Virus record (IMG/VR): IMGVR_UViG_3300021962_000569 | Location: 1 to 26,019 of that record | Reading direction: 5' to 3' (one strand) | DNA: 26,019 bases | DNA from: a virus | Shown: in pieces, positions 23,014 through 24,866 of the stretch | How the letters are laid out: each line of letters begins with the position of its first letter | Numbering within the stretch: the stretch's first letter is position 1 | Translations under genes and position numbers: made by a program | The notes under the pieces: model-generated | The model's database searches: none | Told to the model about the DNA's origin: nothing | The model's input: only the letters and a program-made list of their open reading frames with translations

Positions 23014-23220
23014 GGGGGGGCGCAATAGCAAACCGCAAGGGGTTGCGCTAGGGGTTGCGCCCTAGCGTTTACCAATGAAAAGTGCCCAAAACCGCAAGGG
23101 GGGCGCAATAGCAAACCGCAAGGGGTTGCGCTAGGGGTTGCGCCCTAGCGTTTACCAATGAAAAGTGCCCAAAACCGCAAGGGGGGCGCAATAGCAAACC
23201 GCAAGGGGTTGCGCCCCCCC
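23014..23220. repeat. 83-bp tandem repeat array with internal hairpins
   Basis: Two identical 83-base units (23021-23103 and 23104-23186) are followed by a 28-base partial third unit. Each full unit contains CGCAA-GGGG-TTGCG, able to fold into a five-pair hairpin, and CGCTAGGG...CCCTAGCG with a six-base loop, plus further CGCAA/TTGCG words. The whole array is bounded by a perfect 12-base inverted repeat, GGGGGGGCGCAA (23014-23025) and TTGCGCCCCCCC (23209-23220). It is much richer in G and C than the flanks. An AT-rich stretch follows at 23228-23266. The design would fit an iteron-type origin, a protein-binding array or a REP-like element. I cannot choose between them from sequence alone. Confidence 0.85.
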
Positions 23221-23268: not shown

Positions 23269-23296
23269 TTGACAGCGTGCAACACTGTGCTACACT
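23269..23296 (+). promoter_or_regulatory. Rightward early promoter
   Basis: A perfect TTGACA (23269-23274), a 16-base spacer and TACACT (23291-23296) preceded by TGC (extended -10). The start near 23303 gives a short leader with AAGGGG before the first ATG at 23328. It probably drives the whole rightward operon. Confidence 0.75.
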
Positions 23297-23869: not shown

Positions 23870-23958
23870 GAGAAGAAACATTAGCTGAAAAGGTCTTGGT
23901 GACGTTCGCCTTCCTGCTGGCGCTCTCGGTGCCGTTTGCTTTGTGGTGGGTGTTTTGA
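23866..23958 (+). CDS. 30-residue single-pass membrane protein
   Basis: Direct translation gives MREETLAEKVLVTFAFLLAL ending SVPFALWWVF. A short charged N-terminus is followed by one hydrophobic helix (about residues 10-28) ending in an aromatic cluster. The ribosome site GAGG lies five bases before ATG, which overlaps the previous stop (ATGA). Its own TGA is directly followed by ATG of the second-frame ORF and overlaps candidate starts of the methyltransferase, so its translation could feed both. No family is known to me. Confidence 0.65.
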   Translation: MREETLAEKVLVTFAFLLALSVPFALWWVF

Positions 23959-24866
23959 ATGAGTTGGCTCTTTTCGCAGGCGCTGGTGGAGGCATTCTCG
24001 GAGGACACCTCCTTGGATGGCGAACCGTCTGCGCCGTCGAATGGGAACCCTACCCAGCAAGCGTACTTGTCGCCCGACAAAATGACGGACTTCTCCCGCC
24101 TTTCCCGATTTGGGATGACGTTCAAACCTTTGACGGCAGACCGTGGCAAGGCATTGTTGATGTCGTATCTGGCGGCTTTCCCTGCCAGGACATCAGCGCA
24201 GCCGGAAAAGGCGCAGGCATCGATGGAGAACGATCAGGAATGTGGCGAGAAATGGCACGGATCATTCGTGAAGTTCGACCCCGATACGCATTTGTGGAAA
24301 ACTCACCAATGCTCACTTCTAGGGGACTTGGAACCGTTCTTGGAGACTTGGCCTCAATGGGGTTTGATGCGAAATGGGGAGTGTTGGGAGCAGCGGACGT
24401 TGGAGCAAACCATCAGAGGGACAGGATTTGGATTGTCGCCCAATGGCGTGGACAGCTTTCACACGCCCAACACGACAGGATTAGACGGTGGGAGCAACAG
24501 CAGGAAAGCGTTGAAGAAACGTGCGGAAATATGGCCAACACCAAGGAGTTGTTCAGCAATGGCAGCAACCATAACGCCAGAATCAGCATGGAACGAAAAG
24601 CGAAACCCGAATTTGGAAACAATTGTAGGGAAGCGACTTTGGCCAACACCAACATCACACAACTCGAAAGAAACAAACGCACCAAGCGAAGCATTGCGGA
24701 ATACGCCGACATTAGCGGCACAAGTTGGTGGCAAACTGAACCCGACATGGGTCGAGTGGCTCATGGGGTGGCCGCTAGGGTGGACAGACTTAAAGCCATT
24801 GGAAATGGACAAGTACCACTCTGTGCCGCAACAGCATGGAGACTAATTCAAGGAGACAAACAATGA
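23943..24866 (+). CDS. C5 cytosine DNA methyltransferase, 307 aa
   Basis: It transfers a methyl group from S-adenosylmethionine to carbon 5 of cytosine in DNA. Motif I is LALFAGAGGGILGG (about 8-21), motif IV is SGGFPCQDIS with catalytic Cys81, motif VI is FVENSP (about 118-122), motif VIII is QRDRIWIV (158-165) and motif X is AIGNGQVP (about 285-292). The target-recognition part lies between about 170 and 270. The start is uncertain: GTG 23943, GTG 23946 and TTG 23955 are in frame, and homologues usually begin close to the last. Nearly the whole gene also reads open in another frame. No restriction enzyme gene is visible next to it, so self-protection from host restriction or a regulatory role is likely. 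Confidence 0.93.
   Translation: MVGVLNELALFAGAGGGILGGHLLGWRTVCAVEWEPYPASVLVARQNDGLLPPFPIWDDVQTFDGRPWQGIVDVVSGGFPCQDISAAGKGAGIDGERSGMWREMARIIREVRPRYAFVENSPMLTSRGLGTVLGDLASMGFDAKWGVLGAADVGANHQRDRIWIVAQWRGQLSHAQHDRIRRWEQQQESVEETCGNMANTKELFSNGSNHNARISMERKAKPEFGNNCREATLANTNITQLERNKRTKRSIAEYADISGTSWWQTEPDMGRVAHGVAARVDRLKAIGNGQVPLCAATAWRLIQGDKQ
23959..24846 (+). CDS. Second-frame ORF overlapping the methyltransferase, 295 aa
   Basis: In the +1 frame relative to the methyltransferase an ATG follows directly after the stop of the 30-aa gene, with a GGTG six bases before it. The protein opens MSWLFSQALVEAFSEDTSLD, continues with SRLSRFGMTFKPLTADRG and WPQWGLMRNGECWE, has WPTP twice, and ends with LNPTWVEWLMGWPLGWTDL. 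These phrases look like real protein, and I recall them from proteins predicted in other phages next to or over methyltransferase genes. If real, the pair is a case of overprinting. Other frames here are also unusually open (two minus-strand ORFs above 100 codons), so chance and shared constraint must be weighed. Function unknown. Confidence 0.55.
   Translation: MSWLFSQALVEAFSEDTSLDGEPSAPSNGNPTQQAYLSPDKMTDFSRLSRFGMTFKPLTADRGKALLMSYLAAFPARTSAQPEKAQASMENDQECGEKWHGSFVKFDPDTHLWKTHQCSLLGDLEPFLETWPQWGLMRNGECWEQRTLEQTIRGTGFGLSPNGVDSFHTPNTTGLDGGSNSRKALKKRAEIWPTPRSCSAMAATITPESAWNEKRNPNLETIVGKRLWPTPTSHNSKETNAPSEALRNTPTLAAQVGGKLNPTWVEWLMGWPLGWTDLKPLEMDKYHSVPQQHGD

Follow-up and report, generated by a model that had tools for sequence, protein, structure and literature searches.

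The virus record IMGVR_UViG_3300021962_000569 is a 26,019-base fragment (hereafter the window, meaning the whole stretch analyzed) with P22-like portal, scaffolding and terminase genes. A cytosine-5 methyltransferase frame, here called alpha, is open across 23943-24866, and a second ORF of 295 codons, here called beta, lies fully inside it in the +1 frame, running from an ATG at 23959 to a stop at 24844-24846, 20 nt ahead of the methyltransferase stop, with GGTG six bases before its ATG. A first-pass annotation had drawn attention to this 295-codon ORF overlapping the methyltransferase, and both ORFs, their coordinates, the GGTG spacing and the 20-nt offset were confirmed. Its placement of the methyltransferase start at 23943 held in that the frame is open there, continuing upstream of a TTG at 23955 with GTG starts at 23943 and 23946. 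However, in 59 of 80 homologous contexts alpha starts 4 nt ahead of the beta ATG (at ATG in 38, GTG in 13 and TTG in 8), and TTG 23955 rather than GTG 23943 is therefore the likely start in the window. The beta start was ATG in all 80 contexts, and the paired starts 4 nt apart read NTGAATGAG in homologues. A single ribosome loading site serving two starts would be the simplest reading of these contexts. The features of the locus are listed below.

23943-23961, + strand: shared translation start region with GGTG, alpha TTG at 23955 and beta ATG at 23959, 4 nt apart (homologue contexts)
23955-24866, + strand: alpha, putative large subunit of a cytosine-5 DNA methyltransferase bearing motifs I-VIII and X, 303 aa if started at TTG (PF00145, PHROG 363; start from homologues)
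23964-23993, + strand: alpha motif I, LALFAGAGGG (homologue alignment)
24171-24197, + strand: alpha motif IV with the catalytic Cys, GGFPCQDIS (invariant alignment columns)
24297-24305, + strand: alpha motif VI, ENS (homologue alignment)
24411-24437, + strand: alpha motif VIII, HQRDRIWIV (homologue alignment)
24453-24716, + strand: alpha segment between motifs VIII and X, poorly conserved, without motif IX, a passenger of beta (identity test and alignment)
24786-24818, + strand: alpha motif X, RLKAIGNGQVP (homologue alignment)
23959-24846, + strand: beta, 295-aa +1-frame ORF nested in alpha, PHROG 1008 family (profile match; selection tests)
23959-24408, + strand: beta N-terminal half opposite motifs I-VI, with conserved FVKFDPDTHLWKT...WGLMRNGECWE (alignments; +1 identity 0.67 vs 0.39)
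24409-24732, + strand: beta variable modules (HTPNTTG..., WPTPRSCSAMA..., WPTPTSHNSKE...), proposed target-recognition region (alignment; mosaic combinations)
24736-24783, + strand: beta motif-IX-like block, LNPTWVEWLMGWPLGW (nearly invariant in 119 homologues; aligns with canonical IX)

Two minus-strand ORFs, 24413-24748 and 24459-24812, had no match in a PHROG search. Upstream, between a leftward primosomal gene and the rightward operon, a perfect 83-bp direct repeat occupies 23015-23214 in 2.4 copies, with TTGCG...CGCAA stem-loops. A good promoter match (TTGACA, 16 nt, TG before TACACT) was found at 23269-23296 on the plus strand, upstream of the rightward genes including the methyltransferase.

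Selection on both reading frames

When the synonymous codons of alpha were permuted in the window alone, a mean of 3.5 stops was obtained in the +1 frame and P(no stop) was 0.0038. The chance of roughly 1e-6 put forward in the first-pass annotation is thus too strong for a single sequence once the alpha protein is held fixed, and the open +1 frame of the window by itself is only mildly surprising. Among 73 homologues, no +1 stops were observed vs 418 expected with the alpha amino acids fixed. Because these 73 loci had been picked by similarity to beta, the test was repeated on 80 loci fetched with alpha alone, correcting for the beta-based selection. A beta homologue was present in all 80, whereas the +2 frame held 11-29 stops in each of them. 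Scattered +1 stops in homologues that keep an intact methyltransferase had been named beforehand as an observation that would speak against overprinting, and in 79 of the 80 alpha-fetched loci the core of the +1 frame was free of stops. Individual stops were recorded in alpha at L008, L009 and L015 and in beta at L013.

The +1 translation is itself conserved. Its identity to the window, with the 73 homologues, was 0.67 over motifs I-VIII (0.39 expected, median z 8.7) and 0.73 at the C-terminus (0.39 expected). Silent change was compared with that of terminase and portal genes from the same kind of phages. At 85-90% protein identity, four-fold-site identity reached 72% in the overlapped methyltransferase vs 41% in terminase and 54% in portal, so that unsuppressed synonymous change, also named in advance as contrary evidence, was not found either. 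The ratio of first- to third-position silent differences was 0.20 in the overlap, 0.13 in terminase and 0.06 in portal, a shift toward first positions that is expected where the third base of an alpha codon is also the second base of a beta codon. Across homologues, these comparisons argue decisively against slow silent change as the cause of the open +1 frame. Judged from the alignments, both frames are under selection and linked in the +1 register, and the earlier suggestion that one stretch yields two functional proteins is supported by the +1 stops and the synonymous-change tests alike.

Methyltransferase motifs in alpha and a motif-IX-like block in beta

Alpha matched PF00145 (E=4.6e-32) and PHROG 363 (E=3.1e-71), and motifs I, IV (PCQ), VI (EN), VIII and X were all found in it at invariant columns. 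Motif IX, sought in the same chain between the target-recognition region and motif X, was not found, and alignment of 28 homologues revealed no conserved block between motif VIII and the WW..EP..GRV/X region. When beta was kept constant, the identity of alpha was 0.88 vs 0.40 expected over motifs I-VIII and 0.83 vs 0.45 around motif X, but 0.29 vs 0.22 between VIII and X (median z 1.5); in this last segment beta is the constrained frame, with 53% identity. An alpha-frame stop was seen around motif VIII in L186 (4507-4509), L188 (1937-1939) and L207 (4468-4470), leaving motif X in a separate open frame and beta intact; these stops may be errors, decay or a three-part split.

Beta has none of the catalytic motifs and matched PHROG 1008 over residues 32-279 (E=6.4e-28), a 329-aa family named "DNA methyltransferase", a name that derives from annotation, which was also matched by Chickaboom gp42 (E=7e-74) and by the beta of Paenibacillus phage Bloom (6e-72). 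Searches of Pfam, NCBIfam and PADLOC returned no match to beta, and a sequence search of the PDB gave two chance-level matches only. A Vsr endonuclease, as overlaps dcm, was considered and rejected, given the lack of a Pfam, NCBIfam or PADLOC match. The near-invariant block LNPTWVEWLMGWP of beta is preceded by variable modules that start with PTP and occur in differing combinations, which suggests that they are target-recognition modules. In addition, RLSARFTEWMMGQPAGW of beta can be aligned with RKLTPRECWRLQGFPDW, the canonical motif IX, and both are equally far from motif X; the direct profile match between the block and the canonical motif is weak (E 0.006, probability 6%). In mycobacteriophage Corndog, HHpred matched 53 C-terminal residues of gp6 to C-terminal helices of the HaeIII methylase (PMC4351075). 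We regard Corndog gp6 as a beta-type protein, and its HaeIII match as independent support for a motif IX in beta.

AlphaFold models of beta alone were poor, with pLDDT of 45 using 51 homologues and 60 using 119, and Foldseek found nothing in the PDB for the beta model. The poor model fits a subunit that needs a partner, without showing that it does.

Linked, re-split and fused relatives

Of 245 scored loci, 244 have the IX-like block in the +1 frame relative to the catalytic domain, and 237 have motif X in frame with alpha. In the sole exception, L227, the catalytic frame is disrupted by what looks like an indel. In L216, L219, Arthrobacter phage Chickaboom (gp41/gp42) and ArV1 (067a/067b), motif X is instead read in frame with beta. 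Elsewhere motifs I-VIII, PTP modules, IX-like block and motif X are all carried on a single chain, as in the mycobacteriophages Hamulus, Shauna1 and Babsiella and in prophi_GD43-6. Profile comparison with the Hamulus chain aligned beta residues 138-275 (E=1e-9) and alpha residues 6-170 (E=1e-30). Part of the beta N-terminal half can still be read in the +1 frame of the single-chain genes, a remnant from which it follows that the forms would have been interconverted by a change of frame within the PTP region. The single-chain methyltransferases with such a readable beta-like N-terminal +1 fragment were L250, L251, L253 and L256, the fragment being gp55 in Babsiella.

The M.EcoHK31I described by Lee, Kam and Shaw in 1995 reportedly has its small gene embedded in the large one in a different frame, encoding a polypeptide said to be about 176 aa long. 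In this enzyme, motifs I-VIII and X are on the large polypeptide and motif IX on the small one, with the target-recognition domain on the large subunit (PMC3404938). The window pair shares the motif division of this two-polypeptide C5-methyltransferase (YGGCCR), subject to the weak profile match of its motif IX (E 0.006), and its beta is likewise nested +1 in alpha; the two are likened by description, not by sequence. In contrast to M.EcoHK31I, the VIII-X segment of alpha is nearly unconstrained (z 1.5) and the variable modules are conserved in beta, which is 295 aa long, wholly nested and very widely distributed. Because the placement of target recognition differs, we treat the window pair as a variant that would work like M.EcoHK31I rather than file it as a member.

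In M.AquI (CYCGRG) the natural break follows motif VIII, and a second polypeptide carries motif IX (PMC3404938). L085, L088, L089, L216, L219 and L254 resemble it in dividing I-VIII from IX-X, with overlapping frames. The window differs in keeping motif X on alpha and in the near-complete overlap of its two genes; motifs IX and X were not found together on its second chain, and motif X in the beta frame occurs only in relatives (L216, L219 and L085 among them). In the methylase pair of the cluster O mycobacteriophages (Corndog gp6/gp7, Catdawg gp5/gp6) the N-terminal part is in one frame and the C-terminal part in the other; coding potential in the overlap and similar arrangements in other phages were noted, and whether one or two products are made was left open (PMC4351075). 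That pair carries motif X on beta and overlaps partially, whereas the window lineage is fully nested with both frames selected. In our literature searches for a prior account of the fully nested phage form, only this cluster O note was found; an out-of-frame HNH insertion (PMC11855218) is a different case.

The methyltransferases L248 and L249, on Citrobacter plasmids, belong to a distant second C5-methyltransferase lineage. Their +1 frame at 1297-2307 likewise has an extended ORF that contains PTP modules and LNPHHSRWLMGLP, which suggests an architecture broader than the family studied here.

A proposed two-subunit enzyme and its occurrence

We consider it highly probable that the locus encodes one two-subunit C5-methyltransferase from overprinted genes with two starts 4 nt apart. 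Alpha (frame 0) would supply the catalytic domain, with the SAM-binding motif I, the motif IV Cys, motifs VI and VIII and the C-terminal X helix, while beta (frame +1) would supply the small domain, with PTP modules probably reading the target and with motif IX. Ribosomes probably load once and start at TTG 23955 or ATG 23959, so that both chains would come from one mRNA; the chains would then assemble to methylate the DNA of the phage itself, probably as protection from restriction by the host. From sequence comparison we infer that beta is translated and assembles with alpha, that the PTP modules recognize the target and that the enzyme counters restriction. Beta is thus probably the part that alpha lacks, contributing target recognition and motif IX to one enzyme, an identity that the first-pass annotation had not proposed and that would make the locus a split enzyme instead of a case of unrelated overprinting.

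Beta might instead be a real but independent accessory protein, such as a regulator, an anti-restriction factor or an inhibitor, that shares the DNA. Selection on beta was established without reference to function and beta has no Pfam or PDB match, both of which would suit such a protein. It is nevertheless unlikely, given the almost constant pairing of the IX-like block with the catalytic domain (244 of 245 loci), the missing motif IX and unconstrained VIII-X segment of alpha, and the C-terminal half of beta, which is fused to alpha in single-chain homologues and joined with motif X in others. A single fused protein made by programmed frameshifting from alpha into beta, in place of two separately started chains, finds its best case in relatives with motif X in the beta frame (L216, L219, Chickaboom, Catdawg), where one +1 shift completes the enzyme, and this option was raised and left open for the cluster O mycobacteriophages (PMC4351075). 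It is disfavored for the window because motif X lies in the alpha frame there and two opposite shifts would be needed; moreover, beta has its own ATG in 80 of 80 contexts, mostly 4 nt from the alpha start, and selection also acts on its N-terminal half, a part that a shift late in alpha would skip. We therefore consider frameshifting very improbable.

The possibility that there is no second protein, and that the +1 frame is open through composition, slow silent change or an RNA-structure constraint, draws on the window alone, where P=0.004 could be the luck of a single sequence. Against it stand the 73 homologues without a stop (0 vs 418 expected), the normal silent divergence of control genes from the same phage type, the conservation of the VIII-X region in beta and not in alpha, and beta homologues, 26-45% identical, from phages that infect other hosts and from genome contigs titled as many bacterial phyla. 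For practical purposes it is refuted.

The two-subunit reading of the window could extend to a whole class of phage C5-methyltransferases, which would be fully overprinted two-subunit enzymes. In these, motif IX and the target-recognition module would be on beta, whose N-terminal half would have arisen as a protein domain through overprinting of the catalytic domain; the paired starts 4 nt apart would set the subunit ratio; the arrangement would be old enough to span many bacterial phyla; and changes of frame would convert it to and from single-chain and partially overlapping forms. We hold this wider claim to be evenly balanced.

Beta is encoded in at least 598 IMG/VR stretches, in 319 in GTDB genomes and in 79 annotated phage records, and both frames are intact in 74 of the 80 genome loci kept. 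Carriers include culturable Salmonella, Acinetobacter, Pseudomonas and Klebsiella phages as well as E. coli prophages, the copy of E. coli PT62 being 94.6% identical to that of Salmonella phage S9-5 (accession MW722521). What seemed an oddity of few enzymes would accordingly become a widespread gene architecture, one of the clearest examples in bacterial viruses of two conserved proteins overlapping nearly in full, and the question of one or two products in cluster O (PMC4351075) becomes directly testable.

Annotation of the pair is uneven. Both genes are annotated in Paenibacillus phage Bloom, the alpha frame alone in Acinetobacter phage ABMM1 and in phiBT1 (noted as possibly inactive), and the beta frame alone in Gordonia phage Geodirt and in two Pseudomonas phages, phPA-G and Shamal. 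With one or the other putative subunit left out by gene callers, many methyltransferases would be mis-annotated. In phage phiBT1 (L255, 726-1226), the alpha half is gp9.1, whose annotation describes a possibly inactive DNA methylase, and an unannotated +1 ORF carries PTP modules, the IX-like block and motif X.
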